The notes under the pieces were generated by a model. That model did not search any database, had not been told where the DNA came from, and saw nothing but the letters and a program-made list of their open reading frames with translations. A DNA stretch of 64,000 bases from assembly GCF_004310325.1 (NCBI RefSeq), contig NZ_SIRT01000015.1, forward strand, positions 1-64,000, in the 5' to 3' direction. Both the position numbers and the translations under genes were made by a program. Source of the DNA: Hyunsoonleella flava (lineage in GTDB: Bacteria > Bacteroidota > Bacteroidia > Flavobacteriales > Flavobacteriaceae). Position 1 is the first letter of the stretch; every line of letters begins with the position of its first letter. This document shows positions 85 to 61,967 of this stretch, in pieces.

Positions 85-165
85 GGTTAGGGATAGAAAC
101 GGCATCCTTTTTTGAGGCACGAGAAAAAGATATAGTGAAAAGCCCGACCCCTTGCGGGTAACGCC
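85..165 (+). repeat. Dispersed structured repeat, copy 1
   Basis: This is the shortest of four related intergenic elements in the window (others at 4758, 18324 and 61867). It opens with GGTTAGGGAT where the other copies have GCGTTAGGGAT, and it ends with GCCCGACCCC, a short loop and CGGGTAACGCC. The GTTA near the 5' end can pair with the TAAC near the 3' end, and ACCC can pair with GGGT in the 3' hairpin. The 5' part also has a GGAT/ATCC hairpin that is special to this copy. It lies just beyond the terminator of the minus-strand tRNA gene. It could be a structured RNA or a small non-autonomous mobile repeat; the sequence alone does not decide. Confidence 0.7.
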
Positions 166-207
166 AAAAAAACAAAAATCCCCATTTAAAAACTAAATGA
201 GGATTTA
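166..207 (-). terminator. Terminator of tRNA-Gln
   Basis: Read on the minus strand, an inverted repeat (arms about 194-206 and 176-188, with one G-T type mismatch and a loop of about 5 nt) is followed by a T-rich tract. It lies just after the 3' end of the tRNA gene, as expected for an intrinsic terminator. Confidence 0.7.
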
Positions 208-213
208 TTACAG

Positions 214-286
214 TTGGCCTACTAGGGCTCGAACCTAGACTCTTCTGGACCAAAACCAGACGTGTTGCCAGTTACACCATAGGCCA
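214..286 (-). tRNA. tRNA-Gln (anticodon TTG)
   Basis: The reverse complement folds as a cloverleaf. The 7-bp acceptor stem pairs TGGCCTA with TAGGCCA, leaving discriminator A at 214. The anticodon arm CTGGTTTTGGTCCAG presents TTG, which reads the glutamine codon CAA. The T arm contains the invariant GGTTCGAGCC. CCA is not encoded, so it must be added after transcription. A consensus promoter (296-325) and a terminator (166-207) flank it, so it appears to be transcribed alone. Confidence 0.95.
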
Positions 287-295
287 ATGCGGGTG

Positions 296-325
296 CAAAT
301 TTAGCACAAAGTTTTATTTGCACAA
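296..325 (-). promoter_or_regulatory. Bacteroidota-type promoter of tRNA-Gln
   Basis: On the minus strand TTG (323-325) is followed after 19 nt by TAAATTTG (296-303). This matches the Bacteroidota housekeeping consensus TTG - about 19 nt - TAnnTTTG. The -7 box ends 9 nt before the tRNA 5' end at 286. Confidence 0.75.
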
Positions 326-409
326 GATTTTTTTTAGAAAAATACGCGCTATGAAACCGTTTGTGTTAAAAAAAGAGTTCGTGATCCATAATCTGCACGA
401 TGTGAAAAC

Positions 410-423
410 GTTAATGTTAACGG
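410..423. promoter_or_regulatory. 14-bp palindrome upstream of the DUF2723 gene
   Basis: CGTTAATGTTAACG is a 6-bp perfect inverted repeat with a 2-nt centre, 69 nt before the start codon at 493. It could be an operator. Short AT-rich palindromes also occur by chance, so this is tentative. Confidence 0.25.
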
Positions 424-492
424 GAATATAATATTTATTCTCGTTTGATATTTATTGTTAAATTCGCCACAGCTAACAAACACAGATTCTAG

Positions 493-3400
493 ATGATGGA
501 TTTTAATTTTAAAAAATGGAACACCATTTTGGGCTGGTTCTCTTTTTTAATTGCTTTAATTACCTACAGTTTAACGGTTGAACCCACGGTAAGCTTTTGG
601 GATGCAGGAGAGTATATTTTAACCTCATCAAAACTACAAGTAGGGCATCCGCCAGGGGCGCCTTTGTTCCAAATGCTTGGGGCTTTTTTCTCAACGTTTA
701 CTTTTGGCAATAATGAGCTTATCGGATGGATGATGAACATGATGAGCGCCGTAGCTAGTGCTTTTACCATTTTATTCATGTTTTGGACCATTACATTGCT
801 ACTTACCAAACTTGTAAGGCATCTAAATTCTGAAAACGCAGAAAACAAAGGGAACGTAGATTTAACCAAACAACAATTACAGGCCATTTTAGGAAGTGGC
901 TTAGTAGGTAGTTTAGCTTTTACCTTTAGTGATTCGTTTTGGTTTAACGCCGTAGAAACTGAGGTTTATGCAATGGCTACCTTAATTATGTCTGCGCTAT
1001 TCTGGTTAGCACTAAGATGGGAGCAGGATATGGACAAACCCCGCGGTAATCGCTGGTTGATTTTAATTGCTTTTGTAATTGGACTGTCCTTTGGGGTGCA
1101 CTTTATGGGTTTATTAACCATTCCCGTAATTGGGCTTATTTATTACTTTAAAAACTACAAAACGGTTACCGTACAAAACTTTATTATTGCAAATGTGGTG
1201 TCGGTGGCAATTCTGTTGTTTGTGTTCAAACTATTGGCACCAAATATTCTCAAGATTTTTAGTGCTTTTGAGATTTTCTTTGTGAACAGTATTGGTTTAC
1301 CTTTTAACTCTGGTTCCATCATTGCTGGTCTATTTTTAGTTGGCGTTATTTTGTATGCTTTGAGGTATACAAGGCAAAAAAATTATGTGCATTTAAACAC
1401 AGGTATTTTGTGTTTAACTTTTATCATTATTGGGTTTTCAACATGGTTAATGCTACCTATTCGTGCCAATGCAAACGTGGTGATTAATGAAAATAATCCA
1501 TCAAGTGCACGGGAGCTGTTAGCGTATTATAATTTAGAGCAATATCCTGAAACACACTTGTTTTTCGGTCCGCAGTTTACCGATATGTATGCCTATTTGG
1601 ATAAAAACAATCCGTATGTAGACGATAAACCTAAATATGAGAAAGATGAGGAAAAAGGAGAATATGTTATTGTAAACGAGTATAAAGATGCCAAACAAAA
1701 TTATAACTCAGAGCATGCTTCTATTTTACCAAGAATGTGGAGCGGTGAACATGCCGAAAACTATATGATGTTTACAGGGTTTTTAAACTTTACTGTAAGT
1801 AAAGACCTTTACAAATCATATTACAGGGCTGCCATTAATGCAGGGGCAAGTGAAGAACAGGCCAATACTTATGCGATTAATGAAGTAACCCAATACAAAA
1901 GACAAATAAACGACTTTAGAAACCAAGTTGCCCAGGGTAATGTGGATTATGAAGATTACAACAATTTCTTGAAAAAGGAACAAAGTAATTTAAATATTGA
2001 AAAACCCAGTTTAGCAAGTAATATTAGGTACTTATTTGAATATCAATTAGGCTATATGTACTGGCGCTATTTTATGTGGAATTTTACTGGAAGACAAGAT
2101 GACATACAGGGTAAATTGGATAATAATGGCAATTGGATAAGTGGCATCAAACCCATTGACGAGTGGCATCTAGGGTATTCCCAAGATAATTTACCAAGCG
2201 ATGTAAAAAACAACAAGGCGAGAAACACCTATTACTTTTTACCTCTTATTCTGGGGCTTATTGGGATGTTTTTCCTGTTGAATACAGATAGAAAACGCTT
2301 TTGGGTAATGCTAGTATTTTTCCTTTTTACAGGATTAGCCATCCAAGTGTATACCAATGTGAGACCATTTGAACCTCGTGAGCGTGATTATTCGGTTGTT
2401 GGTTCGTTTTATGTGTTTGCCTTATGGATTGGCTTTGGGGTGTATGCTATTTACCATACATTAAAAGATAAATTGCCCAAATCCCTGGCCGTACCCGTAA
2501 TTACCGTAGCATGCTTGATATTGGTGCCTGGTATCATGGTAGCCAATAACTGGGACGATCATGACCGTTCTGATAAATACACCGCACAAGCTATGGCCAG
2601 AAAATATTTAGATTCCTGTGCCGAAAATGCCATACTATTTACCATTGGTGATAATGATACTTTTGCCCTTTGGTATGCTCAGGAAATTGAAGGCTATCGT
2701 ACAGATGTTAGAGTAGTAAACACCAGCTTGTTCCAAACAGATTGGTATATAGACCAAATGAAGCGAAAGGCTTACGAAAGTGATCCTATTCCATCGCAAC
2801 TCGATCATAAAGACTATCTATATGGTACAAACGATTATGTTAGGATTGAGCCACTTACTCAAGACACCATAAGCTTAAAAAAGGCTTTAGACTTCATTCA
2901 AAGTGATAGTCCAAAATCCAAGTACAAATATTTAATGCAGCAACAGGGTTATGATATTTCTGGTATTAGAAATCAAGACCTGAATGCTAACTATTTATAC
3001 ACCCGCAACATCCGCATTGACGTTAACAAAGAAAATGCTCTAAAAAGTGGCATTGTAAAACCTGAAGATGCCGATAAAATAGTACCACATATTGATATCA
3101 CTATTAAAGGAGGCGCTATATACAAAAACCGTTTGTTAATGCTAGATGTGGTTGCCAATAACGAATGGAAACGCCCTATTTATTTCACTGGAGGAAGCTT
3201 TGGCGATGACGATTATATCTGGATGAAAGATTACCTTCAACTGGATGGCATGTGCTATAAGCTTGTGCCAATTAAAACTGAAGTTGACAGGGCAAACCCT
3301 TTTGATATGGGGCGTATAGACACAGATCTTATGTATGAAAAAGTAAAAACATGGGATTGGGGTAATAGCGGAAGTCCAGATATATATCACGACCCTGAAA

Positions 3401-3900
3401 CACGCAAAAACTCTATAACCTATAGAGGCAACTTAGCGCGTTTGGTTGAAGAATTAATTAATGAAGATAAACTTGAAAAGGCCGAGGAAATTGCAGATAT
3501 AGCAATGGAAAATATGCCGGTAGAGTATTTTGGATATTACACATTACTAGAACCATACATTGGTGCCTATTATGAAGTAGGCTCTAAGGAAAAAGCAAGG
3601 GACCTATATTTTAAAGTGAGCAAAAAGTACCAAGAAAACCTAACCTATTACAGCGGTTTATCAGAACAGAACCAAGAACGTTTGTTTGAGGATATTTATG
3701 TTGATATCCAGCGTTACAAAGGTTTAATTGACGTGCTTGCCAATTACGATATGGAACTTGCAGAGAAAGAAAGTACTACTTTTAATAATTATCTAAAGTT
3801 GTTTAAATATTTCTATGGTGAAGAAGATGCAGCTGATGTAGAAAACACCGATGTGGATATCCCTTCAGATAGCACTACGCCTATTGAAGCCGTAGATTAA
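493..3900 (+). CDS. DUF2723 family membrane protein, predicted GT-C-type glycosyltransferase
   Basis: This 1135-residue protein has a hydrophobic N-terminal half with about 10-13 predicted membrane segments (from residue 12 to about 330, then about 575-690) and a soluble C-terminal region. Near the N-terminus WDAGEY (36-41) is followed by GHPPGAP, the conserved acidic and loop motif of DUF2723 proteins. This family is distantly related to lipid-linked-sugar transferases of the GT-C fold and to human TMEM260, a protein O-mannosyltransferase. The C-terminal 200 residues look helical and TPR-like. A role in protein or lipid glycosylation at the inner membrane is inferred from the family. Two ATGs lie together at 493 and 496; the first is used here. 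The deacetylase gene follows within 16 nt, suggesting co-transcription. Confidence 0.85.
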   Translation: MMDFNFKKWNTILGWFSFLIALITYSLTVEPTVSFWDAGEYILTSSKLQVGHPPGAPLFQMLGAFFSTFTFGNNELIGWMMNMMSAVASAFTILFMFWTITLLLTKLVRHLNSENAENKGNVDLTKQQLQAILGSGLVGSLAFTFSDSFWFNAVETEVYAMATLIMSALFWLALRWEQDMDKPRGNRWLILIAFVIGLSFGVHFMGLLTIPVIGLIYYFKNYKTVTVQNFIIANVVSVAILLFVFKLLAPNILKIFSAFEIFFVNSIGLPFNSGSIIAGLFLVGVILYALRYTRQKNYVHLNTGILCLTFIIIGFSTWLMLPIRANANVVINENNPSSARELLAYYNLEQYPETHLFFGPQFTDMYAYLDKNNPYVDDKPKYEKDEEKGEYVIVNEYKDAKQNYNSEHASILPRMWSGEHAENYMMFTGFLNFTVSKDLYKSYYRAAINAGASEEQANTYAINEVTQYKRQINDFRNQVAQGNVDYEDYNNFLKKEQSNLNIEKPSLASNIRYLFEYQLGYMYWRYFMWNFTGRQDDIQGKLDNNGNWISGIKPIDEWHLGYSQDNLPSDVKNNKARNTYYFLPLILGLIGMFFLLNTDRKRFWVMLVFFLFTGLAIQVYTNVRPFEPRERDYSVVGSFYVFALWIGFGVYAIYHTLKDKLPKSLAVPVITVACLILVPGIMVANNWDDHDRSDKYTAQAMARKYLDSCAENAILFTIGDNDTFALWYAQEIEGYRTDVRVVNTSLFQTDWYIDQMKRKAYESDPIPSQLDHKDYLYGTNDYVRIEPLTQDTISLKKALDFIQSDSPKSKYKYLMQQQGYDISGIRNQDLNANYLYTRNIRIDVNKENALKSGIVKPEDADKIVPHIDITIKGGAIYKNRLLMLDVVANNEWKRPIYFTGGSFGDDDYIWMKDYLQLDGMCYKLVPIKTEVDRANPFDMGRIDTDLMYEKVKTWDWGNSGSPDIYHDPETRKNSITYRGNLARLVEELINEDKLEKAEEIADIAMENMPVEYFGYYTLLEPYIGAYYEVGSKEKARDLYFKVSKKYQENLTYYSGLSEQNQERLFEDIYVDIQRYKGLIDVLANYDMELAEKESTTFNNYLKLFKYFYGEEDAADVENTDVDIPSDSTTPIEAVD

Positions 3901-3915
3901 ATATTGGCAGAAAAT

Positions 3916-4593
3916 ATGCCGTTAACACCCGTAAAGACACCTAAAGTTGTTAAGTCGCTATTCCCGAATTATGTCTGGAATATTGACACTTTAGAAAAGG
4001 AGATTTATCTAACGTTTGATGATGGCCCTACACCAGAAATCACGGAATGGACGTTAAATATTTTGGAACAATACCAAGCCAAAGCAACCTTTTTTTGTAT
4101 TGGCGCAAATGTTGAAAAACATCCCGAGATTTTTAAAAAAATTCTAGATGCTGGTCATAGCATTGGTAACCACACACAACACCATATTAAAGGCTGGAAA
4201 GTTAAAAACAAAGCCTATCTGAAAGATGTTGAAGCTTGCGAAACCGTTTATAAATCGCAAATGCGAAGTTCCAATTCCGAAATCGTTAATCAAAAATCGT
4301 TAATCGCTAATTTCTTCCGTCCGCCTTACGGAAAAATCACGCCCAAACAAGGTAAATCGCTCATAGAAAAAGGCTACAGTATTGTTATGTGGGATGTGTT
4401 GTCTTTTGATTGGGATAAAAATGTTTCAAAGGAGGAATGCTATAACAACGTCGTTTCAAAAGCAAAAAACGGGAGTATCATTGTATTTCATGATAGTGTA
4501 AAAGCTTCAAAAAATATGCAATATGCGTTGCCAAAAGTTTTAGAGCATTATAGTAAATCGGAGTATGAATTTAGGGGGTTGAATAGTCTTTAA
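3916..4593 (+). CDS. Polysaccharide deacetylase (NodB domain) family protein
   Basis: A 225-residue protein with the carbohydrate esterase 4 motifs in order: TFDDGP (33-38, catalytic base and metal Asp), NHTQHH (metal His), RPPYG, a DW-containing segment and IIVFHDS near the end. The family removes N- or O-acetyl groups from peptidoglycan, chitin-like or exported polysaccharides. No signal peptide is evident, so a cytoplasmic or inner-membrane-associated enzyme is possible. ATG at 3916 is preferred over an upstream in-frame TTG at 3904, which lies only 4 nt after the previous stop. Just before RPPYG there is a segment rich in Ser, Asn and Ile (about residues 119-135) whose DNA contains a near-repeat of AAATCGTTAATC. 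It looks like a small in-frame repeat insertion in a surface loop. Confidence 0.9.
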   Translation: MPLTPVKTPKVVKSLFPNYVWNIDTLEKEIYLTFDDGPTPEITEWTLNILEQYQAKATFFCIGANVEKHPEIFKKILDAGHSIGNHTQHHIKGWKVKNKAYLKDVEACETVYKSQMRSSNSEIVNQKSLIANFFRPPYGKITPKQGKSLIEKGYSIVMWDVLSFDWDKNVSKEECYNNVVSKAKNGSIIVFHDSVKASKNMQYALPKVLEHYSKSEYEFRGLNSL

Positions 4594-4646
4594 TAGAAGG
4601 TAAACTATTAAAAACCCTCTTGACTTTGTCAGAAAAAAACGATAAC

Positions 4647-4704
4647 TTCGTTTAACATCCGATATAGTTCATTATAACGGAACCAAATCTAACCGTTAAA
4701 CGAA
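4647..4704. repeat. Inverted repeat (potential stem-loop) after the deacetylase gene
   Basis: TTCGTTTAAC (4647-4656) is matched exactly by GTTAAACGAA (4695-4704). Between them lies a smaller GTTC...GAAC inverted repeat. The whole could form a branched hairpin. No T tract follows, so it is not a standard terminator. It may be an unrelated intergenic repeat or RNA structure. Confidence 0.5.
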
Positions 4705-4757
4705 CTTCCCAATAACAAAACAGCTTTTGGTCAAAAACCAAACTCTAGCAAGTAAGT

Positions 4758-4857
4758 GCGTTAGGGATTGAGCGATTGTTGGAGCTCCTCACAGAGAGCG
4801 ACTCGCGAAAGCCCGACCCTTTTTACCCTGAGGTACTCGAAGGGTGGGGTAACGCCC
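4758..4857 (+). repeat. Dispersed structured repeat, copy 2
   Basis: A 100-nt copy starting GCGTTAGGGATTG and ending GGGGTAACGCCC, with the internal AAAGCCCGACCC block. The outer GCGTTA/TAACGC pairing is perfect. The 3' hairpin ACCC...GGGT encloses a longer loop that itself contains an ACCCT...AGGGT hairpin. The middle holds GGAGCTCC. It lies between the 3' ends of two convergent genes. A short reading frame through this region is not convincing. Confidence 0.8.
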
Positions 4858-4877
4858 AAAAAATAAAAATTCAGAAA

Positions 4878-5174
4878 TTAAATATACTCTTGAATGACTT
4901 CAATAAGGGTATCGGCATCTTGTTCGCCACTTTGGCGCCATTTCATTTCGCCATCTTTGTAAATAATTAATGTTGGTAAGCCTTTAACACGAAGTGCATC
5001 GGCGAGTTCTTGGTTTTTTTCAATATCAATTTTAATGACTTTAGCTTTATCGCCAAGGGCAGCAGCAACATCACGAAGCACAGGATGCATTGCTGTAGAT
5101 TGTTCGTTCCATTCTGCATAAAAATCAAACAGTACTGGGACTTCAACATCAATTAATTCCCCAAATTTTGACAT
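4878..5174 (-). CDS. Thioredoxin-fold protein without active-site cysteines
   Basis: A 98-residue single thioredoxin domain. The typical FxAxWC...C active site is FYAEWNEQS (residues 18-26), so both redox cysteines are absent and the protein has no Cys at all. The cis-proline loop GLPT (65-68) and the pattern of strands are kept. It therefore should not act as a disulfide reductase; a scaffold or partner-binding role is inferred. Similar Cys-less versions are, to my knowledge, conserved in flavobacteria, so this is probably not a decayed gene. A perfect 18-bp palindrome lies 7 nt upstream of the start. Confidence 0.85.
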   Translation of the reverse strand: MSKFGELIDVEVPVLFDFYAEWNEQSTAMHPVLRDVAAALGDKAKVIKIDIEKNQELADALRVKGLPTLIIYKDGEMKWRQSGEQDADTLIEVIQEYI

Positions 5175-5181
5175 ATTTTTA

Positions 5182-5199
5182 ATGTTTTAGTTAAAACAT
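5182..5199. promoter_or_regulatory. 18-bp palindrome upstream of the thioredoxin-like gene
   Basis: ATGTTTTAGTTAAAACAT has perfect 8-bp arms with a 2-nt centre and lies 8-25 nt before the start codon (minus strand). Its position over the leader suggests an operator or an mRNA hairpin. It shares the form ATGT-N10-ACAT with the palindrome at 16260-16277. Confidence 0.4.
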
Positions 5200-5316
5200 C
5201 TTACACAAACCCACATATTTTTTTGACGATACCTAAAATTCTTTTTTGTGCGGGTTCACTCTGACTTATTTATAAAAATAGTAAATTTTTAGAGTAAATA
5301 TAACATTTACATGCAA

Positions 5317-6549
5317 TTACGCATTATGTGAGCCTTTTTTAAGCTCTATCACAGTTATTTCTGGCCAAATACCAACGCGACCTGGGAATCCTAAATAGCC
5401 AAAACCTCTGTTTACATTTATATACTGCCCCAATTCTTTATAGATACCTGCCCAATACTTGTAGCGCCATTTTACAGGGCTCCATTTAAACAATCCTGGT
5501 ATTTCGACACCAAACTGCATCCCGTGCGTATGCCCACTGAGCGTTAAGTGATAATGATAATCATCATGGATCACTTGCTTTTCCCAATGTGAAGGGTCAT
5601 GACTTAGCAGTATCTTAAAATCGTTTTTATCGACTTTTTCAGAGGCTTTTTTCAAGTCTCCCGCTTTTTTAAAGCCTCCAGCTCCCCAGTTTTCTACACC
5701 AATTAAGGCTATCTTCTCTCCATTTTTTTCAACGTACCTGCTTTCATTCAACAGCAAATCAAAACCGATTTGCTTTTGTAAGTCCTTTAAATCCTCTAAA
5801 TTTTGGGCTTTAGCCTCCGCGGATTCCCATCTTAAATAATCACCATAATCATGGTTTCCTAAAACTGAATACATGCCATCTTTAGCCTTGAGCTTTTTAA
5901 AAATGTCTACGTACGGTAGCATTTCCTTTGTTTCATTATTCACCATGTCTCCAGTAAATAAAATGACATCGCTTTTTTGCTCATTTATTAAATTAATGGC
6001 GTATTCTACCTTCTCAATATTATCAAAACTACCGGAGTGTACATCACTAATTTGTGTTAATTTATAACCATCAAAAGCCTCGGGCAGATCTTCAAAAGTC
6101 AATGTATAATTTAGTACTTTAAAGTTGTATTTTCCTCTGTACATTCCATAAAGCACAGCACCAAAAGGAATGGCAGCAATCCCTAAAGCTATTTTAGAAA
6201 TAAAGGCTCTACGGGAGGGTAAATATTTTACATCAGCATTTGAACCCTCGGTAAAATAACGGAATGCTGCTTGAGGTACCCTAAAGATATCCTCGGCAAA
6301 CATGATTCCCAGAATGATTACTTTAGGTATTAAAATAGCCAAGAAAAATCCAAAAGCAAAGGCTTGCGGATTACCAAAATCCTTGCGAGTTAAACCATAA
6401 AATTGATAAATAAGGTTACCAACAACTAATAAGGTAATAACCCAGTACACTACATTTAGCCAAATAGTTTTTGACACTGTACGAAATGCTTGAAAAGCAT
6501 AAACATCAATTATTATAAATATGAGCAAGAAAATAACCCAGCGCAGCAT
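5317..6549 (-). CDS. Membrane-anchored metallophosphoesterase
   Basis: A 410-residue protein. The N-terminal region (about 1-90) carries three hydrophobic segments, with another near 118-135. A calcineurin-like phosphoesterase domain fills the rest. Metal-binding motifs are all present: DVH (169-171), GDMVNN (200-205), GNHDYG (231-236), SHDPSH (316-321) and GHTHG (339-343). Relatives of YkuE/YaeI type hydrolyse phosphoesters, including lipid substrates such as UDP-diacylglucosamine in the LpxG/YaeI group, but the substrate here cannot be read from sequence. It is transcribed alone, divergent from the sugar transporter. Confidence 0.88.
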   Translation of the reverse strand: MLRWVIFLLIFIIIDVYAFQAFRTVSKTIWLNVVYWVITLLVVGNLIYQFYGLTRKDFGNPQAFAFGFFLAILIPKVIILGIMFAEDIFRVPQAAFRYFTEGSNADVKYLPSRRAFISKIALGIAAIPFGAVLYGMYRGKYNFKVLNYTLTFEDLPEAFDGYKLTQISDVHSGSFDNIEKVEYAINLINEQKSDVILFTGDMVNNETKEMLPYVDIFKKLKAKDGMYSVLGNHDYGDYLRWESAEAKAQNLEDLKDLQKQIGFDLLLNESRYVEKNGEKIALIGVENWGAGGFKKAGDLKKASEKVDKNDFKILLSHDPSHWEKQVIHDDYHYHLTLSGHTHGMQFGVEIPGLFKWSPVKWRYKYWAGIYKELGQYINVNRGFGYLGFPGRVGIWPEITVIELKKGSHNA

Positions 6550-6665
6550 AGTTTTCTTTTTTTGTAAATATAATGATTATAGCACGTAGCTAATCTTATA
6601 ATATTGTTAATGATTTTCGCCATAGTACTATTATTAAAAAGACTGAATAGCAGAAAAAGAGTTAC

Positions 6666-6681
6666 TATACATTTTAGTATA
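6666..6681. promoter_or_regulatory. Inverted repeat upstream of the sugar transporter
   Basis: TATAC (6666-6670) and GTATA (6677-6681) flank a 6-nt spacer, 30 nt before the transporter start. It could bind a dimeric regulator. The arms are short, so chance is a real alternative. Confidence 0.25.
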
Positions 6682-6711
6682 TTAGGCAACCTGTAACAAC
6701 TTAACTAACTT

Positions 6712-8382: not shown

Positions 8383-8417
8383 ATTTTTGTTTCAATAAAA
8401 TTAAAGTCAACTTTTCG

Positions 8418-8425
8418 TAGCTTTG
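8418..8425 (+). promoter_or_regulatory. Candidate -7 box of polA
   Basis: TAGCTTTG matches the Bacteroidota -7 consensus TAnnTTTG and lies 22 nt before the polA start. No TTG was found at the expected -33 distance. Confidence 0.45.
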
Positions 8426-8447
8426 GTTTTCTATCAAAACATTCAAA

Positions 8448-11297: not shown

Positions 11298-11374
11298 ATT
11301 TTAACATAAGTAAACTTGTCTCGAGCTTGCTTAGAGTTTATTATAAATTTATATACATCTTAAAATATTAGTTT

Positions 11375-14164: not shown

Positions 14165-14267
14165 AAAAACAAAGATTGCTATGTTTTATGTGACAAAAGT
14201 CATTAAATAAGAAGCAACTATTTGAGAATTTTGTAGCAAATAAATTTAACTTCTAAATATTAGAAAA

Positions 14268-15422: not shown

Positions 15423-15443
15423 CAATAAAAACAGATTTTATTT

Positions 15444-15480
15444 AGCCTTCGGAGTTTTATATTCTGAAGGCTATTTTTTT
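15444..15480 (+). terminator. Terminator of the alcohol dehydrogenase gene
   Basis: AGCCTTCGGA pairs with TCTGAAGGCT (one non-Watson-Crick pair) around a loop of about 8 nt, followed by A and a run of T. It starts 21 nt after the stop codon. Confidence 0.85.
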
Positions 15481-15520
15481 GATATAAACTTCTCTTTTTT
15501 TTCGCTGGTCAAACGGTGTT

Positions 15521-16318: not shown

Positions 16319-18268
16319 TTACCTCCGTTTCTTTTTGCTCCTAAACTTAGCTTTATTCTTCCGCTGATTAAAAGGTACCGCATCATCAAACGTATGCTTA
16401 GGCTTTCCTGGTTTATTTTTACGCCATTTTTCTTCTTTTTTAGGAAGCAACACATCTAATAAATCTTGACGCCCTAGTTTATTAAGCGTATTTTTTATCC
16501 AAGCCTTGTTTTCATCTTTATACCAGAAGAAAAATCGATGCTGCTCATCTTTTTCTTTTTGTGTTTTAGGCGTTTTTACTTTTTTAAGCGTATAAGGGTG
16601 GTAACCGCTATAGTAAATAACAGTAGCTACCGTCATAGGTGTTGGTGTAAAGCCTTGTACTTGCTCTAACTGAAAGCCCATATCTTTGGTTTCTGCAGCT
16701 AAATTAGCCATATCCTCGGCTTCACAAGCTGGGTGATTTGATATAAAGTAAGGAATCAACTGTAACTTCAATCCTTTCTTCATATTAATTCTATCAAACC
16801 GTTCTTTAAACTTATGAAAATAACTAAAAGATGGTTTTCGCATCAATTTTAAAACAGGATCACTAGTATGCTCTGGTGCTACCTTCAATCGCCCAGAAAC
16901 GTGCTTCGTCATCACCTCTTCTGTATAATCGTCTAACTCTTTCGGGTCGGCATTTTTATTGAATTCTGGTACTAGCATATCATGGCGAATGCCACTACCA
17001 ATAAACGATTTTTTTACTTTTGGATGGCTGTCCACAGCTTGATACAAATCAGTTAAAGGCTTATGAGACGTATCTAGATTACTACAAATTACAGGCGAAA
17101 TACACGACGGCGCTACACACTTATCACAAATCTCCTGTACTTTACCTTTCATCTTATACATATTGGCACTAGGACCTCCAATATCAGACAAATAACCCTT
17201 AAAATCAGGCATATTCGCTACCGTATCTACCTCTCGCAGTACAGATTCGTGACTTCGAGACGCAATAAACTTTCCTTGATGCGCAGAAATAGTACAAAAA
17301 CTACAGCCTCCAAAACAGCCACGATGAATGTTTATGGAAAACTTAATCATCTCATACGCAGGTATCGGTCCGCGTTTATTGTATTTAGGATGAGGCAATC
17401 TTGTATAAGGCAATTCAAAAGATGCGTCAATTTCAGCTTCAGTCATTGTTGGATATGGCGGATTAATCATCAACGTTTTATCTCCAACCTTCTGAAAAAT
17501 TCTTCGTGCCGCTAGCTTATTGCTCTCCTGCTCTATTATTTTAAAGTTAGAGGCATAGGCTTTCTTGTTTTTCAAACACACCTCATGCGACTCAATCTCA
17601 ACATCTTCCCAATTACTGTTTTTGGGGATTTTTGCGCCTTCATCCAATAACACCGCTGTCTGCTTAACAGTAGTAATACTGCTAAACGGCACCCCTTTTT
17701 GCACCAAACGCACCACCTCTCTGAGTGGCTGCTCTCCCATTCCATAGACCAACATATCTGCTTTAGAGCTCTCTAAAATCGTAGGCATCAACCTATCACT
17801 CCAATAATCGTAATGCGTTACACGACGCAAAGAAGCCTCAATACCGCCAATTAAAACGGGCACATCGGGCCATTTTTCTTTTAAAATATTTGTGTAAACC
17901 GTAGTGGCATAATCAGGGCGAAATCCAATATCGCCATTGGGCGTATACGCATCCTTTTTTCGGCGTTTTTTATTCGCATTGTAGTTGCTAATCATTGGGT
18001 CCATGCACCCACCCGTTACCCCAAAAAACAATTTTGGAGCACCCAATTTTACAAAATCTTGAAGATTATCATTCACGTTAGGTTGCGGCACAATAGCCAC
18101 ACGCAACCCAAAACTTTCCAACAAACGGCCAATAACCGCAGGTCCAAACGTTGGGTGGTCCACATAGGCATCACCGCTGAAAAGAATAACATCAAGTGCA
18201 TCCCATCCGCGAATTTTGACCTCTTTATTTGTGGTAGGCAACCAACTAGAAAGTTTTAACTCCTGCAT
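16319..18268 (-). CDS. YgiQ family radical SAM protein
   Basis: A 649-residue protein with the N-terminal YgiQ domain (starting near LKLSSWLPTT), a radical SAM core with the cluster motif CFGGCSFC (about residue 315) and a C-terminal region ending in a basic tail (KKKRR). The three Cys in CxxxCxxC bind the 4Fe-4S cluster used with S-adenosylmethionine. Its reaction is unknown. The ATG at 18268 is preferred over one at 18286: family members usually begin with MQELKLS, and a candidate -7 box (18276-18283) lies inside the longer version. A copy of the dispersed repeat lies about 55 nt upstream. Confidence 0.9.
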   Translation of the reverse strand: MQELKLSSWLPTTNKEVKIRGWDALDVILFSGDAYVDHPTFGPAVIGRLLESFGLRVAIVPQPNVNDNLQDFVKLGAPKLFFGVTGGCMDPMISNYNANKKRRKKDAYTPNGDIGFRPDYATTVYTNILKEKWPDVPVLIGGIEASLRRVTHYDYWSDRLMPTILESSKADMLVYGMGEQPLREVVRLVQKGVPFSSITTVKQTAVLLDEGAKIPKNSNWEDVEIESHEVCLKNKKAYASNFKIIEQESNKLAARRIFQKVGDKTLMINPPYPTMTEAEIDASFELPYTRLPHPKYNKRGPIPAYEMIKFSINIHRGCFGGCSFCTISAHQGKFIASRSHESVLREVDTVANMPDFKGYLSDIGGPSANMYKMKGKVQEICDKCVAPSCISPVICSNLDTSHKPLTDLYQAVDSHPKVKKSFIGSGIRHDMLVPEFNKNADPKELDDYTEEVMTKHVSGRLKVAPEHTSDPVLKLMRKPSFSYFHKFKERFDRINMKKGLKLQLIPYFISNHPACEAEDMANLAAETKDMGFQLEQVQGFTPTPMTVATVIYYSGYHPYTLKKVKTPKTQKEKDEQHRFFFWYKDENKAWIKNTLNKLGRQDLLDVLLPKKEEKWRKNKPGKPKHTFDDAVPFNQRKNKAKFRSKKKRR

Positions 18269-18275
18269 AGCCTTG

Positions 18276-18283
18276 CAAAAGTA
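18276..18283 (-). promoter_or_regulatory. Candidate -7 box of the ygiQ-like gene
   Basis: On the minus strand TACTTTTG matches TAnnTTTG, 7 nt before the ATG at 18268. It would give a very short leader and supports the shorter start. No -33 TTG was found at 18-20 nt. Confidence 0.4.
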
Positions 18284-18323
18284 CACAAAATTTAACGCTT
18301 GTATTGGAAGCGTTTTTTTATTT

Positions 18324-18414
18324 GGGCGTTACCCCGCTTAAAGCGTGGTCGGGCTTTCACTACTCAATCCCTCCTTCGTCGGGGATTTCAAACACACCGT
18401 TCAATCCCTAACGC
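18324..18414 (-). repeat. Dispersed structured repeat, copy 3
   Basis: On the minus strand the element runs from GCGTTAGGGATTG to GGGGTAACGCCC (91 nt). The outer GCGTTA/TAACGC stem is perfect. The 3' hairpin differs in sequence from the other copies: the loop holds CGCTTTAAGCG, which is itself self-complementary. The middle contains an AATCCC...GGGATT hairpin not found in the other copies. It lies between the ABC ATPase gene end and the ygiQ-like gene start, in the same orientation as both. Confidence 0.8.
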
Positions 18415-46476: not shown

Positions 46477-46529
46477 TTTTATTTAATGTTAGGTTTTGAA
46501 TTAATATCTTTTTTAAATTAAAAATTTAA

Positions 46530-48813: not shown

Positions 48814-48816
48814 ATA

Positions 48817-50948: not shown

Positions 50949-50961
50949 GATAAACTTTAAA

Positions 50962-52650: not shown

Positions 52651-52707
52651 AGTGTAGTTAAAATCTCGCCAAAGATAATACTATTTAGTAAATCTGTGCA
52701 TTTCTTT

Positions 52708-53757: not shown

Positions 53758-53760
53758 CCG

Positions 53761-54879: not shown

Positions 54880-54908
54880 TTTTTTATAACTATTTGAATA
54901 ATTATCAA

Positions 54909-54916
54909 CAAATGTA
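54909..54916 (-). promoter_or_regulatory. Candidate -7 box for the polysaccharide operon (gmd)
   Basis: On the minus strand TACATTTG matches TAnnTTTG, 29 nt before the gmd start. A TTG lies 22 nt upstream (54939-54941), a wider spacing than the usual 18-19. Confidence 0.45.
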
Positions 54917-54941
54917 ATACAATTGTGCGCTTTTTAATCAA

Positions 54942-56438: not shown

Positions 56439-57302
56439 TTATTCGAAATCTATAAAATTAGTAGGGTTGATTGGATAGCCATCACTCCAAAGTTCAAAAT
56501 GCAAATGCGGACCGGTAGATAATTCTCCCGTATTTCCAGAAGTGGCAATTACCTCTCCTGCTTTTACCAAATCACCTTGGCTTTTAGTTAATGTTGCGTT
56601 ATGCTTATATACCGAAATTAGCCCGTAACTGTGTTCTAATATAATAACATGTCCTGTACCCGCAGTCCATTCTGCAAAAATTACAATACCATCAGCGGTA
56701 GCTTTAATAGGTGTGTCTTTTGGCACAACAATGTCTACAGCGTAGTGCTTTTCTTTGACGTTGTAAGGTTCACTAATAGTGCCCGTTGCTGGTGGAAAAA
56801 GCACGAAATTAGTAACGGATGTGGCAGATTCAAATAAATTGTATTTATCCTCTTTTTCCACTTTTGCGCGTAATAAAGAATCTTCTCTAGTAGGGTTTAA
56901 ATCTACTTCACTAATCTCCAGTTTAGTTGCTTCAACTATTGAATCTCTATTTAACTCCTCTGAACTTACATCACCCTTTAACACCTTTTTTATTGATGCA
57001 AAATAGCGCTCGTTTGCTATCAAGACTTGCTGCAGAGAGTCTGTTTTAAAGCTCAAATTCGTTGCTTTTTTCTTTAGTGCCGTTGATGAATACCCTGGAA
57101 TATATTCCTTTAAAGGCGAATAGGCGATGAGCAAAATGGTAAATCCTACCAATAAAATACTAGAAAGGGTAACTATAACAAATACGTTTAATCTGGTAAG
57201 TTTTAATGATAACCTTTCCTCAAAAGTATTTTCATTAAGTATTACCAAACGGTATTTGTCCAGCAGTCTTTTTTTTATCTTTTTGGGTTTTTTATCCGCC
57301 AT
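56439..57302 (-). CDS. M23 family metallopeptidase (LytM-like), membrane-anchored
   Basis: A 287-residue protein. One membrane segment (about 33-60) follows a short Lys-rich cytoplasmic N-terminus. A coiled-coil-like linker (about 78-150) leads to a peptidase domain with HYAVDIV (His and Asp zinc ligands) and GPHLHFELW (HxH). It is predicted to cut peptidoglycan cross-links in the periplasm or to regulate amidases. All zinc ligands appear present, so it is probably active. Confidence 0.92.
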   Translation of the reverse strand: MADKKPKKIKKRLLDKYRLVILNENTFEERLSLKLTRLNVFVIVTLSSILLVGFTILLIAYSPLKEYIPGYSSTALKKKATNLSFKTDSLQQVLIANERYFASIKKVLKGDVSSEELNRDSIVEATKLEISEVDLNPTREDSLLRAKVEKEDKYNLFESATSVTNFVLFPPATGTISEPYNVKEKHYAVDIVVPKDTPIKATADGIVIFAEWTAGTGHVIILEHSYGLISVYKHNATLTKSQGDLVKAGEVIATSGNTGELSTGPHLHFELWSDGYPINPTNFIDFE

Positions 57303-57310
57303 ATTGCACG

Positions 57311-57318
57311 CAAAATTA
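57311..57318 (-). promoter_or_regulatory. Candidate -7 box of the M23 peptidase gene
   Basis: On the minus strand TAATTTTG matches TAnnTTTG, 8 nt before the start. The leader would be very short. TTG occurs 12 nt upstream, not the usual 18-19. Confidence 0.4.
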
Positions 57319-57402
57319 GTTAAATAATTTCAAGGTTTTGGTTTTCTCTTCAGGAAACACTTAGTAATAGTGTTAAAAACGGTTTTATTAAACTTTAATT
57401 AT

Positions 57403-57410
57403 TAACTTTG
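57403..57410 (+). promoter_or_regulatory. Candidate -7 box of tatA
   Basis: TAACTTTG matches TAnnTTTG and ends 10 nt before the ATG at 57421. No TTG was seen at the -33 distance. Confidence 0.45.
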
Positions 57411-57420
57411 TATCCTAAAT

Positions 57421-57612
57421 ATGTTTGTTATGAGTTTATTCACATTACCATTGGCTATAGGTGCCCCACAAATTATTTTAATTGTAGTTGTGGTATTACT
57501 GTTGTTTGGTGGACGAAAAATTCCTGAATTAATGCGTGGTTTAGGAAGCGGGATTAAAGAATTTAAAGACGCAAGTAAAGAAGACGAGCCAAAAAAGGAT
57601 AAAGCTGAATAA
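57421..57612 (+). CDS. tatA: TatA/E family twin-arginine translocase subunit
   Basis: A 63-residue protein with one N-terminal membrane helix ([14 protein letters not shown]), the [21 protein letters not shown] hinge and amphipathic helix, and a charged tail. It forms the pore component of the Tat system that moves folded proteins across the inner membrane. tatC is not in this window. An alternative ATG lies at 57430. A terminator follows. Confidence 0.95.
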
Positions 57613-57634
57613 GCTTTAGATCTTTATAAAAAAT

Positions 57635-57667
57635 TAAAAAACCAACACGATATGTGTTGGTTTTTTG
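57635..57667. terminator. Bidirectional terminator after tatA
   Basis: AACCAACAC pairs with GTGTTGGTT around a 5-nt loop. A tract lies before it and T tract after it, so it can serve both tatA and the convergent DUF4837 gene. Confidence 0.9.
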
Positions 57668-57689
57668 TTTTTAACGTTTTTCTTTACCT

Positions 57690-58667
57690 CTACTCATCTA
57701 TCTTAATACTCTTAATTATCGCCTCTAGCTCGAACATGTAATCACGTTTTTCTACAGATGGTGCAAAAGCAAATCCCTCGGCAATTATCCAGCGTTTATT
57801 TATTTTATCTTCAATGGCATAATTGATATAAGGTCCCGCCATAAAAGCATTTTTCACATCCCACATCCCTTTGGTTTCCAAAGTGGGCTTATTGTCTAAA
57901 ATGGTTTCTCCATGAAAAGGTGTGTATGCCATTTCGGTAGTCATATATGAGCCCTCAACCGGTCCTTCAATATATTGCTTCCCAATAGAATCCCTTATAG
58001 CAACAATTTGATTTACCACACTATCCTTCTTTATAGCATCTTCTGGCAGTTCAAAAAGCAGTAAATTAAGTGTCCCTGTATTAATATCCCTTCTTATCCA
58101 AAAGAAGTTGTCATCCTCTTTTGCAATTCTATATGCACTGGGGAATTCAATTTTTAAACCTAATTTATCACTAACCTCTTTAGAGTTAAAAAGCGATTTC
58201 CTTATGAGGCGTTGTCGCTCTTTCAGCTCAATATTTTTGAAGGTTTCAATTATTTTAGCAGCGTTTTCTTCTAAAACATCCTCAATCTCTTGTTTGGTTT
58301 TCCCAGTGATTAAAATTACTTTTTGGGGTTTCGCATATACATTGTCTCTAATTGCAATACCCCCCGGTTTTCCCATTTCAATTTTTAAAACCGTACGTCT
58401 TCTAGTGATAAAATCTGTAAAAACTTGCGGTGGTATTTGATTAAGATCAAACGTAGGCTCATCTTGAGGCAATCCATATACAGGAACCGTCAGCAACTCC
58501 CTAATAGCTTCGCCCAAACGTCCTTTCCAGTTTTCATTGTCAATAACAACAGATACATCATTAATTCTTCCTTCTGAATCAAAAAGTATTCTTTTGTTTT
58601 TTGATTTGTCGTCTTTACACGACACAAGTAGTAGAGCAATTATTAAAACACTTACTATTTTTCTCAT
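57690..58667 (-). CDS. DUF4837 family lipoprotein
   Basis: A 325-residue protein with lipoprotein signal IIALLLVSC (Cys17). The segments NENWKGRLGEAIRE and QDEPTFDLNQIPPQVF, then RIAKEDDNFFWIRRD, are characteristic of DUF4837, a Bacteroidota envelope family of unknown function. It lies 19 nt downstream of the lytic transglycosylase gene, a pairing that suggests a role in cell-wall maintenance. Confidence 0.88.
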   Translation of the reverse strand: MRKIVSVLIIALLLVSCKDDKSKNKRILFDSEGRINDVSVVIDNENWKGRLGEAIRELLTVPVYGLPQDEPTFDLNQIPPQVFTDFITRRRTVLKIEMGKPGGIAIRDNVYAKPQKVILITGKTKQEIEDVLEENAAKIIETFKNIELKERQRLIRKSLFNSKEVSDKLGLKIEFPSAYRIAKEDDNFFWIRRDINTGTLNLLLFELPEDAIKKDSVVNQIVAIRDSIGKQYIEGPVEGSYMTTEMAYTPFHGETILDNKPTLETKGMWDVKNAFMAGPYINYAIEDKINKRWIIAEGFAFAPSVEKRDYMFELEAIIKSIKIDE

Positions 58668-58686
58668 GGTTTTTATTTTTTCGAAG

Positions 58687-60255
58687 TTATCCTTTTGAAA
58701 TTTTCAACTTCATTCCTGGTTTTAATTTACTACCACTAATACCGTTCCAATCTTTAATATTTTGAATGGAAACTCCAGAAAACTTTTGAGATATGCTCCA
58801 AAGTGAGTCTCCGCTTTGCACCGTATATATAATAATGTCGCCAGAAATAGGCTTTGGTTTTGCCTTTTTAGTAGTAATTTTTGGCGCAGAAACCACAGGT
58901 TTTCTTGGATAAATTGAAAGCCGTTGTCCAATTTTTAAATTATTATTCCGCAAACCATTCCAACGTTTTATATCGCTAACACGAACACCATAAATTCTGG
59001 CTATTTTCCCTAAATAATCGCCTGATTTTACACGATATCTTATCCTGTCATTTGCATTAAAAAATTGAGGTAATGGTTTTTCTCGTTTTTCCAATTCTTC
59101 TTTAGCAAACGCATAGATTTTTTCTTCATTATTCACAAAGGCTCCAATAACATCAGTCGGCAATCGCAAAGTGTAGTTTTCTCCTTTAACTACTGGAATA
59201 ATATCCAGCTTATACGAAGGATTTAAAAACTGGAGTTGTTCTATCGGCGTTCCCGTGATTTCCGAAACCTGGTCCAATGTTATCATCTGCTTTACACGAA
59301 CCGTATCCGTCTCAAAGTATACCATTTCTGGTTTGTAACGCTTAAACCCATGTGCTTCGGCATATTCAAAAATATACATATTGGCTAAAAATGCCGGTAA
59401 ATAGCCAGCCGTTTCACGCGGCAAATTATGGCGAATATTCCAATAGTTTTTATAACCACCTGAACGTCGGATGGCTTTGGTAACATTTCCTGGACCCGAA
59501 TTATAAGCTGCCAAAGCCAAATCCCAATCTCCAAAAATTTGATAAAGTTTTGCTAAATATTTTGATGCCGCTGTGGTAGACTTTATAGGGTCGCTGCGTT
59601 CATCAACGTAGCTACTTACATCTAATCCATACATTTTGCCGGTGCTAAACATAAATTGCCATAAACCGGTTGCTCCTACTCTCGATTTTGCATTAGGCTT
59701 TAAGGCAGATTCCACAATAGCCAAATATTTTATTTCTAACGGAATATTTTGATTATCCAGTTCCTGCTCAAACAGTGGGAAATAATAAGCACTCAATGTC
59801 ATTAGCTTTTGCAAATGCTTTCGTCTATGTTTTAAATAGGATTTAATCACACTTTCTAATGACGGATTGTAAGATACATTAAACGGTGTTCTGGCATCCA
59901 ACTCCTTTAAGCGTTTTTTTAGCGTGTCTGTTGGCAGTTCTGGATAATCCACTTCTTCAAAAGTCATTTCTGTTACAGACTTGTATATGGTATCAAAAAG
60001 TGTATTGTTATAGAGTTCCTCTCGCCATTTTTTATCCAACTCTGCTAGATCGCTATTATCTTGAAGCGTTTTAATCGACAAACTATCATCTTCAACAATA
60101 GGTGCAATTGGTTTAACAACCGTTTGTTGTGCATCTATTAGAGTGTCCTTGGCAACCTCAACTTTTACAGCGGTTGAATCTTGCAACTGCCCAAAACAAA
60201 AGGCATTGCATAACAAAGAAAGTAATATTGAAAAACGAAAAGCCATAGTATCCAT
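58687..60255 (-). CDS. Lytic transglycosylase with two LysM domains (MltD-like)
   Basis: A 522-residue secreted protein. The signal peptide ends near CFGQ (about residue 23). An SLT domain (about 150-300) contains VESALKPNAKSRVGATGLWQ with the catalytic Glu, and YNSGPGNVTKAI. Two LysM domains follow (about 408-452 and 476-520), each starting with VxSGD. It cleaves peptidoglycan glycan strands. ATGs occur at 60255 and 60246; the first is listed. The DUF4837 gene is downstream in the same unit. Confidence 0.93.
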   Translation of the reverse strand: MDTMAFRFSILLSLLCNAFCFGQLQDSTAVKVEVAKDTLIDAQQTVVKPIAPIVEDDSLSIKTLQDNSDLAELDKKWREELYNNTLFDTIYKSVTEMTFEEVDYPELPTDTLKKRLKELDARTPFNVSYNPSLESVIKSYLKHRRKHLQKLMTLSAYYFPLFEQELDNQNIPLEIKYLAIVESALKPNAKSRVGATGLWQFMFSTGKMYGLDVSSYVDERSDPIKSTTAASKYLAKLYQIFGDWDLALAAYNSGPGNVTKAIRRSGGYKNYWNIRHNLPRETAGYLPAFLANMYIFEYAEAHGFKRYKPEMVYFETDTVRVKQMITLDQVSEITGTPIEQLQFLNPSYKLDIIPVVKGENYTLRLPTDVIGAFVNNEEKIYAFAKEELEKREKPLPQFFNANDRIRYRVKSGDYLGKIARIYGVRVSDIKRWNGLRNNNLKIGQRLSIYPRKPVVSAPKITTKKAKPKPISGDIIIYTVQSGDSLWSISQKFSGVSIQNIKDWNGISGSKLKPGMKLKISKG

Positions 60256-60310
60256 TACCGGTTAAGTGAACGATATTATGGCTAAAATCGTATTTTTTAG
60301 TTGAAATACA

Positions 60311-60352
60311 AAAAAGAAGACCACATAGCGTTTAAAATCTATGTGGTCTTTT
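60311..60352 (-). terminator. Terminator between pgk and mltD-like gene
   Basis: ACCACATAG and CTATGTGGT form a 9-bp stem around an 11-nt loop, followed on the minus strand by a T-rich tract. It would end transcription coming from pgk. Confidence 0.85.
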
Positions 60353-60375
60353 GTGTTTATATTTCTCGATAATAA

Positions 60376-60424
60376 TCGGTTCTCGATACAATTTCGACGA
60401 AAAAATCGAAATCACTCGAACCGA
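60376..60424. repeat. 49-bp imperfect palindromic repeat (REP-like)
   Basis: TCGGTTC (60376-60382) pairs with GAACCGA (60418-60424), and inside it TTTCGA pairs with TCGAAA. The sequence (GGTTCTCGATACAATTTCG and its mirrored partner) resembles a palindromic intergenic repeat known from flavobacterial genomes. It lies between the pgk stop and the pgk terminator. Confidence 0.7.
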
Positions 60425-60436
60425 CATCTTGTGCTT

Positions 60437-61624
60437 TTATGCTAAAATAGCTGCAATACCAGGAAGCGTTTTGCCTTCTAAACTTTCCAACATAGCCCCA
60501 CCACCAGTACTTACGTAGCTTACTTTATCTTGAAAACCAAATTGTTTAACAGCCGCTACAGAATCGCCACCACCAACAAGTGAAAAAGCACCTTCTTTAG
60601 TAGCTTCTGCAATTGAATCTCCTAAGGCTATGGTGCCAGCAGCAAAACTTTCCATTTCAAAAACACCTAGTGGCCCATTCCATAAAATGGTTTTACTTTC
60701 CATAACCACCTTGTGGAATTGCTCACGAGATTTTGGTCCAGCATCTACACCTTCCCAACCATCAGGAATGGCATTAATATCACAAATTTGTGTATTGGCA
60801 TCGTTACTAAAAGCATCTGCGGCAACGGTATCAACAGGAATGTGTATTTGTACATTTTTGGCTTTTGCTTGTTCCAATATTTCTAAAGCTAGTCCCATTT
60901 TATCATCTTCGCAAATGGAATTTCCAATCTTTCCGCCTTGTGCTTTTACAAACGTAAATGCCATACCACCACCTATTATCAGATGATCTACTTTATCTAG
61001 AATATTTTCAATAATGGTAATTTTTGAAGATACTTTTGCCCCACCAAGAATCGCCAATACAGGCTTTTCACCAGTTTCCATAACTTTTTTAATACTTTCA
61101 ATTTCTTGAGCCAACAAGTTTCCAAAGCATTTTTTGCCTTCGAAAAACTGAGCAACAATAGTGGTGGAAGCATGTGCTCTGTGGGCGGTACCAAAGGCGT
61201 CATTTACATAAATATCGCCAAGTTTGGACAGCTTTTCAGCAAAACCTTCATGACCTGCCTTCTCTTCGCCATGAAAACGAAGATTTTCTAATAATAAAAT
61301 TTCACCTGGTTCTAAACTTGCTGCTGCAGCCTCAACATCCGCACCAACACAGTCAGCAACAAACTTTACACCTACACCTAAAATATCTTCAACCTTAGAC
61401 ACAATATGCTTTAACGAAAACTCATCTTGAAATCCTTTTGGGCGACCTAAATGCGACATTAATATACAACTACCGCCATCTTCTAAAATTTTAATGATTG
61501 TTGGTTTTGCAGACACAATTCGTGTAGCATCCGTAACCTCAAAATTTTCATTTAGAGGCACATTAAAATCAACACGGATTAGGGCTTTTTTATTTTCAAA
61601 ATTGAAATCGTTTAGAGTCTTCAT
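60437..61624 (-). CDS. pgk: Phosphoglycerate kinase
   Basis: A 395-residue glycolytic enzyme. [10 protein letters not shown] is at 17-26, [10 protein letters not shown] at about 58-67 and GGGDSVAAV near 350. The central linker and both domains are of normal length. It transfers phosphate from 1,3-bisphosphoglycerate to ADP. No gap or tpi gene adjoins it. It is transcribed alone, with a -7 box 28 nt upstream and a terminator downstream. Confidence 0.98.
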
Positions 61625-61652
61625 TATTATTGTTTTATATCAAATTAGAACA

Positions 61653-61660
61653 CAAATGTA
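61653..61660 (-). promoter_or_regulatory. Candidate -7 box of pgk
   Basis: On the minus strand TACATTTG matches TAnnTTTG, 28 nt before the pgk start. No TTG at the -33 distance. Confidence 0.5.
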
Positions 61661-61682
61661 GTCAATTAAATAGCTTAAAAAA

Positions 61683-61910
61683 ATGACTTTTTTAACGAAA
61701 ACGTTTGAAGTGAAAAAAGAATTTGAAAAATGGAATTGCTTTGAGTGTTTGAAGTATTTAAATCTTGATTTATTAGAAAAAAATGGTAAATATCCGCTAG
61801 AGTTAAACGAGCCCCTCCAAAAAAGCATCACCAAAACGATAAAACCCTACCTTGGCAGACAGACCCGCGTTAGGGATTGCAGAGGAAAGCCCACAGCTTT
61901 TGCGCCTTAG
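61683..61910 (+). CDS. Small open reading frame ending inside repeat copy 4
   Basis: A possible 75-residue protein. The first 61 residues have natural-looking Lys/Glu/Leu-rich composition with a CFEC pair and a KTIKPYLGR segment. The last 14 residues are encoded by the repeat element and look unnatural. If the gene is real, the insertion may have replaced its original 3' end. I do not recognise a family, and the frame could also be spurious. Confidence 0.3.
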   Translation: MTFLTKTFEVKKEFEKWNCFECLKYLNLDLLEKNGKYPLELNEPLQKSITKTIKPYLGRQTRVRDCRGKPTAFAP

Positions 61911-61967
61911 CGCAGAAGCGAGGACTTGAAACGTAAAGCCCGACCCGACCTTAGGAGGGTAACGCCC
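61867..61967 (+). repeat. Dispersed structured repeat, copy 4
   Basis: A 101-nt copy from GCGTTAGGGATTG to GGGTAACGCCC. The outer GCGTTA/TAACGC pairing is perfect. The 3' hairpin is ACCC-GACCTTAGGA-GGGT, again with a loop different from the other copies. The middle carries a strong hairpin (GCTTTTGCG with CGCAGAAGC). It lies about 60 nt upstream of the cupin-like gene on the same strand, so it could be part of that leader. Confidence 0.8.

Follow-up and report, generated by a model that had tools for sequence, protein, structure and literature searches.

The window analysed here, the first 64,000 nucleotides of contig NZ_SIRT01000015.1 (forward strand; assembly GCF_004310325.1) of Hyunsoonleella flava, contained four copies of an intergenic element related to the Rfam family Flavo-1 (RF01705). 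The genome of this bacterium comprises 3.81 Mb in 63 contigs; by DNA polymerase I, its closest named relatives were Hyunsoonleella species, with protein identity of up to 93%. The copies lay where a preliminary description, made from the sequence alone, had placed them. They were assigned to arm types as follows, P1 and P2 denoting helices of the element:

86–165, plus strand: copy 1, Flavo-1 type I, with the 5′ end of P1 removed by IS110.
4758–4856, plus strand: copy 2, type V, between convergent genes, with a thioredoxin gene downstream on the opposite strand.
4758–4763, plus strand: 5′ strand of P1 in copy 2, GCGTTA, pairing with 4850–4855.
4764–4769, plus strand: start of P2 in copy 2, GGG-A-TT, pairing with AA-G-CCC at 4809–4814 across the conserved A.G mismatch.
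4850–4855, plus strand: 3′ strand of P1 in copy 2, TAACGC.
18325–18414, minus strand: copy 3, type IV, upstream of a radical-SAM gene (16319–18286, same strand).
61867–61966, plus strand: copy 4, type III (GAAAGCCCACAG...GAGGACTTG), upstream of an open reading frame (ORF; 62029–62889).

The copies had the common frame 5′-GCGTTA GGG A TT G ... AA(A/T) G CCC GACC (hairpin) GG TAACGCC-3′, with the consensus start GCGTTAGGG and the consensus end GGTAACGCCCAAA. In all four, this frame formed a three-way junction of an outer helix, P1 (GCGTTA/TAACGC), a long arm, P2 (GGG-A-TT...AA-G-CCC, with conserved A.G and G.A mismatches), and a 3′ hairpin, P3, with only GA as the spacer between P2 and P3. The element was approximately 75–200 bp long, within the limits of the search patterns. 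The preliminary description had noted paired ends, a 3′ hairpin with a constant stem and a changing loop, and self-complementary middles, all of which were borne out. It had erred in reading the start of copy 1 as a variant of GCGTTAGGG, since the end of an IS110-type element replaces the first bases there. Single-sequence folding was weak evidence and its energies were not decisive (z-scores of copies 1–4: 0.50, −2.16, −0.31 and −2.76). Other palindromic repeats, reading CCCTGAGG..CTCGAAGGG and CCTGTCTGCCGGCAGGCAGG, were nested in Flavo-1 loops or junctions, namely in the P3 loop of copy 2 (window 4825–4845) and at loci L034, L038, L071, L281 and L231.

In the genome of H. flava, the pattern GCCCGACC-N2..32-GGTAACGC gave 63 matches and its reversed control none; the stretches fetched from this genome held 93 distinct elements. 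A strict fuzzy pattern detected the four elements of the window and, among 80 related loci, another 19 spread over 16 of them; reversed controls gave no matches. A looser pattern was dropped as a detector (53 matches versus 34 in the reversed control), whilst the flank comparison at the radical-SAM site was kept as a lead. A degenerate motif like GGCAGATA..CCC preceded P1 on its 5′ side in 38 of 85 copies from this genome by one pattern and in 47 by another; it was not seen by eye in loci from elsewhere in the class.

The suggested identity with Flavo-1 was correct for copy 1, which scored 44.5 bits against a gathering threshold of 42 (match at 73–153). Copy 4 stayed below this threshold with 29.4 bits, and copies 2 and 3 gave no match to RF01705 at E ≤ 5. 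A search of the whole genome with RF01705 returned 44 matches at E ≤ 10, 14 of them above the cut-off. The Rfam model, which goes back to Weinberg et al. (2010), has 76 positions and resembles the P2 arm of type I copies; it lacks P1 and stops before P3, whereas the full element has both. Flavo-1 is one subtype of a larger interspersed repeat family that extends across the Bacteroidia. In the open-access literature on Bacteroidetes repeats, no title or abstract opening named the full element; subscription journals were outside the scope.

The middles were not, as first described, merely different from copy to copy; most belonged to recurrent types. From 206 copies found (six matches in reversed controls), eight interrupted by insertion sequences (IS) were removed. 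Five arm types, distinguished by signature, accounted for 181 of the remaining 198 (IV: 91, V: 30, I: 28, III: 20, II: 12) and 17 were classified as other; these frequencies are skewed towards type IV because the query used to fetch 60 of the stretches contained a type IV copy. In a few copies (L188, L258 and L242, from genomes G011 and G004), a type IV-like arm carried an extra AT-rich insert of about 50–60 nt ending in GAGTAAAGC.

Maintenance of the structure was supported by covariation in three alignments of 198, 37 and 30 copies. Across the 11 frame pairs of the 198 uninterrupted copies, 60 cells were double-changed; none of 500 shuffles exceeded 11, and sliding the pairs gave nine. In 37 type IV and V copies, 13 of 23 pairs had double changes (103 cells; shuffled: 36.8 ± 5.6). 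In 30 class-wide matches they were present in 18 of 23 pairs (111 cells; shuffled: 34.3 ± 4.8), an alignment that leans towards the model because it was fitted to it. The preliminary description had named the lack of further copies and of covariation as evidence against its view; both further copies and covariation were found. G.U pairs were scarce in P1 and P2 taken together (23 of 2178 cells in the 198 copies, 3 of 388 class-wide; tRNAs: 42 of 638).

The range of the family was determined with a covariance model, R1. At E ≤ 0.001 it found matches in 91 of 295 Bacteroidia genomes, representing 55 of 156 genera and 34 family codes, and at E ≤ 1e-6 in 49 genomes; the E-values are rough, and counts per genome are lower bounds, being capped at 15 scored candidates. 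A negative control of 180 kb of loci around Y1 transposase genes gave no match at E ≤ 0.01. In the class-wide loci, whole helices were exchanged for other Watson-Crick helices (e.g. L405), and types I, III, IV and V recurred by eye. None of 20 class-wide loci matched an Rfam family at gathering threshold.

The placement of the elements relative to genes was assessed with our own ORF caller. Two clear neighbours were assigned to 73 of the 93 elements from H. flava (20 were unclear). With E as the element and arrows for gene directions, the contexts were >E> (21), <E< (20), >E< (16) and <E> (16), so the orientation of the element to genes is random. Where the downstream gene pointed towards the element, its stop codon was 0–21 nt from the element end in 22 of 36 cases; where it pointed away, the median distance to its start was 74 nt (n = 37). 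The consistent upstream orientation expected of a cis-regulatory RNA was absent among the 73 elements, with the radical-SAM site as the exception: there, an upstream element, of differing types and always in the direction of the gene, was present in the window and in 11 of 37 relatives (in one as a remnant). A role as intrinsic terminator seems unlikely, as the copies read were followed on the 3′ side by A/T-rich sequence and not by a T-run. Two copies (L186, L301) appeared by eye to adjoin the genes for transfer-messenger RNA and RNase P RNA directly.

Copies were also compared at shared sites, where both neighbouring genes are homologous between species of the genus. This yielded 24 pairs at 16 sites, and the orientation was the same in 24 of 24. 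The arm type differed in five of these pairs, and P3 differed in others. For 22 of the 24 pairs, the median identity was 0.94 for the element and 33/33 for the frame, compared with 0.80 and 0.82 for the flanks and 0.73 for a shuffled flank, a contrast that is overstated because decayed copies escape detection and the flank alignments were local. In genome G002, four of seven type IV copies carried the variant CC where other genomes mostly had CA or TA. A C at that second position occurred in 1 of 88 elsewhere (p = 5e-5, for a position picked after looking). Two of the four CC copies (L343, L353) lay at sites shared with copies lacking CC. Replacement of copies at occupied sites can be inferred from these comparisons.

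H. ulvae and H. pacifica, which are mostly near 90% identical, had four and seven strict elements, respectively, in an alignment of 400 kb. Their partners in the other species were intact, decayed to a 5′ remnant or, next to a rearrangement, had a swapped middle; one was unclear. No clean pair of empty and filled sites, at which a target duplication could show, was seen in the two aligned 400-kb regions. At the thioredoxin site, many relatives had nearly abutting genes and no element, the flanks being too diverged to place a boundary. New insertion must occur, though none was caught.

The first bases of copy 1 are missing owing to an IS110 element inserted between GC and GTTAGGG of the Flavo-1 start. 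The following features belong to this junction:

1–85, minus strand: left end of an IS110-family IS, with the transposase expected beyond the contig start.
17–26, minus strand: putative left target guide of a bridge RNA, TATCCCTAAC, reverse complement of the Flavo-1 start GTTAGGGATA.
1–85 and seven other contig ends (L063, L065–L070): IS110 left ends.

The same 24-base IS end was present at these eight contig ends, and in 8/8 it abutted Flavo-1 at the same position, in copies of several arm types. The IS110 ends probably explain the contig breaks there. An IS110 transposase was not found in the H. flava assembly, as would be expected had assembly merged the IS repeats or left out the short contig holding them. 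Related IS had an end 78% identical that adjoined a transposase-like ORF (L191, genome G090) and an end 85% identical that adjoined a PF01548 (IS110) transposase (L369, genome G005 of the same genus). An apparent right end of another IS110 element, seen by eye at L180 (start of G011:C17), abutted a Flavo-1 copy at GGCAGG.

The IS end holds TATCCCTAAC and GTGCGT, the latter being a putative right guide that lies outside the window, in other contig ends. By analogy with the bridge RNA of IS621 (PMC11208160), the two as left and right guides would specify the target TATCCCTAACGCAC, whose reverse complement, GTGCGTTAGGGATA, is a Flavo-1 start. The left guide matched the Flavo-1 start over 9–10 bases at 8/8 junctions (left junction only). 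The guides at L194 and L200 matched their own sites (GCAAAGTCT), and the guide at L191 did so with one mismatch. Other related IS ran counter to a guide function: at L369 the guide spelled a Flavo-1 variant (left TATCCCTAGC, right CTTGCG; GCGCTAGGGATA), yet the IS itself sat in a different gene resembling a transposase gene, with a match to the right target and none to the left, and the guides at L193 and L199 matched their own sites only partly. The IS110 element of this genome may be RNA-guided to Flavo-1.

The existence, structure and range of the family are firm. As to its nature, we favour, with moderate confidence, the reading that the Flavo-1 family is an intergenic DNA repeat like the repetitive extragenic palindromic (REP) elements and bacterial interspersed mosaic elements (BIME), whose copies are passed on at their sites and kept alike by copying from one to another. 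That it is a DNA repeat rather than an RNA gene or cis-regulator seems probable to about the same degree. In favour of this reading are the copy number, the covariation, the class-wide range, the random orientation to genes, the shared sites, the CC variant of G002, the scarcity of G.U pairs relative to tRNA and the IS110 junctions. In the mechanism we hypothesize, recognition of the folded strand as single-stranded DNA would occur in the course of replication or repair; copies would overwrite one another there by gene conversion-like replacement, with rare new insertions. The copying enzyme would probably not be a Y1 transposase of the RAYT (REP-associated tyrosine transposase) group. Single copies probably have little gene-specific function. 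Situated in spacers and often directly at a stop codon, the copies make safe landing pads, and in this genome an IS110 element with guide-like sequence matching the Flavo-1 end sits exactly there. The bridge RNA of IS621/IS110 has left and right target guides, and IS621 targets REP elements in Escherichia coli (PMC11208160), so the parallel with REP elements is one of role. A bolder version is tentative and somewhat unlikely: a new Bacteroidia-wide class of modular elements, unrelated to the REPs of RAYTs, held long-term at fixed, oriented sites, with active copy replacement on the folded strand (cassette-like exchange of arms) and use by IS110 as an RNA-guided landing pad.

Several observations weigh against the DNA-repeat reading. 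The conservation at shared sites is partly ascertained because strongly decayed copies went undetected. No copying enzyme was found in the searches for a Y1 link and for neighbour families; in the latter, no neighbour family present in at least three genomes included a distant genome (29 loci, one per distant genome). The constant orientation at the radical-SAM site could reflect cis-regulation there. The A.G mismatch was retained in 194 of 198 copies and the next G.A in 188 of 198, as in RNAs that bind a protein or ligand. In P2, wobble pairs were biased towards the plus strand (GU 16 versus AC 2, p = 0.0013) and those of P1 were not (GU 7, AC 11, p = 0.48), with p-values that are rough because the copies are not independent. 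The distal part of P2 also held a conserved U.G pair, switching to G-C or A-U. From this pair and the wobble bias, P2 probably folds as a single plus strand, of RNA or of DNA; both signals suit RNA as well as single-stranded DNA. An earlier argument, that GU equals AC overall and that no RNA constraint exists, was withdrawn because removal of the interrupted copies exposed the bias in P2.

The conserved mismatches, the wobble bias of P2 and its U.G pair favour a real structured RNA. A protein or ligand would then be bound by Flavo-1 transcripts or by transcribed segments of untranslated regions (UTRs), the many copies being functional small RNA (sRNA) genes or UTR modules. The strong covariation is equally in its favour, Rfam types Flavo-1 as an sRNA, and several 5′ transcribed regions of Flavobacterium psychrophilum coincide with Flavo-1 matches in a transcriptome study (PMC9723704). 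The same study reports matches that are sense or antisense to transcribed regions alike, and many in none (PMC9723704). In our data, the orientation to genes was random and two of the four window copies folded no better than shuffles. P1 resembled a double-stranded inverted repeat: the wobble pairs of 30 tRNAs comprised 42 G.U in 638 cells and no A.C, in contrast to the balance in P1. We consider an RNA rather unlikely as the explanation of the family. P1 shows no strand bias and, with its compensatory changes, behaves as a terminal inverted repeat, which would also suit a classical miniature inverted-repeat transposable element (MITE) or other transposon derivative, moved by a cut-and-paste transposase that acts in trans and recognises these repeats. 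The preliminary description had proposed such movement through the ends; the ends do pair and covary, the element is dispersed, and copies approximately 90–97% alike occur at many places in other genomes of the genus. Against a MITE stand the fixed orientation at shared sites and the absence of a clean empty site between H. ulvae and H. pacifica over the 400 kb. Inspection by eye of about 200 nt at 33 solo 5′ ends and 20 solo 3′ ends in the fetched DNA revealed none that resembled the end of a longer element; far partners were not searched systematically. Copy 3 had no blastn match in plasmid and phage collections, and four exact patterns matched 0, 1, 0 and 2 viral contigs. Mobilisation of this kind thus appears improbable.

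The habits of the family, being intergenic, palindromic, located at stop codons and a target of IS110, are also those of REP elements mobilised by a RAYT (Y1 HUH transposase), for example of the Bacteroidetes subclass 2.6. For this subclass, atypical flanking structures with copies elsewhere in the genome are described (PMC6006769), which counts in favour of this explanation. In contrast, R1 was run over 57 Y1 loci, the full set of 27 from the genus plus 30 of the 49 in 14 other element-rich genomes, and detected no element within 1.5 kb; L440 was an exception, holding a diverged type III copy that was seen by eye and missed by R1. Another REP core, CTAGCGGTAG, or its neighbours occurred in 8 of the 27 Y1 loci of the genus versus 0 of 60 background loci. 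Genomes G006 and G008 contained elements without a Y1 match, as did G142 (one contig, six R1 matches). A RAYT origin is therefore very improbable. Sorting of the Y1 proteins into published subclasses by motif left 38 of 57 loci unclassified and was not used. One Y1 (RAYT-like) gene (L062/L061, G000:C34 202.6–205.8 kb) had its own palindromic repeats nearby, with the core GCGGTAGCGGG, distinct from Flavo-1; the IS110 relatives at L191 and L192 sit at a palindrome similar to these repeats.

Should Flavo-1 be one arm of an interspersed DNA repeat of the whole class, its entry in Rfam would be truncated and, probably, mis-typed, and annotations of Bacteroidia would need review where they call an sRNA. 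A review lists Flavo-1 among abundant sRNA families without giving a function (PMC9029176), and the transcriptome study of F. psychrophilum offers no clue to one (PMC9723704). With shared sites, interchangeable modules and variants of restricted host range, REP-like copying and homogenisation can be tested without a known transposase. The IS110 junctions provide a natural example of guide-like sequence matched to a repeat family.

The attC sites of integrons are folded as well, beginning with YAAC and ending with GTTR. The four copies had the opposite polarity, with GTTA at the 5′ and TAAC at the 3′ end, and an attC identity was rejected. With MITEs, the family shares short, non-coding, numerous copies with inverted-repeat ends; it differs in that no partner transposon was seen among the solo ends read and no target duplication in the aligned regions, and in that sites are shared and oriented across species. 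REP elements are palindromes of 20–40 bp tagged with GTAG or CGTC at one end, and CGTC-tagged repeats are reported from Bacteroidetes (PMC3733652). Membership in this group was rejected, as neither tag is present at the GCGTTAGGG start or the GGTAACGCCCAAA end of this element of about 75–200 bp. The likeness to REP and BIME repeats lies in being interspersed, intergenic, palindromic, located by stop codons and targeted by the IS110 family (PMC3733652, PMC11208160); Flavo-1 differs in its greater length, three-way junction, modular arm, lack of a tag and lack of a Y1 link. As in IS621/IS110 systems, an IS end carries guide-like sequence matching the repeat on which it lands, here 8/8 at one Flavo-1 base, with the differences that the target is Flavo-1 instead of REP and that the present case is known from sequence alone.

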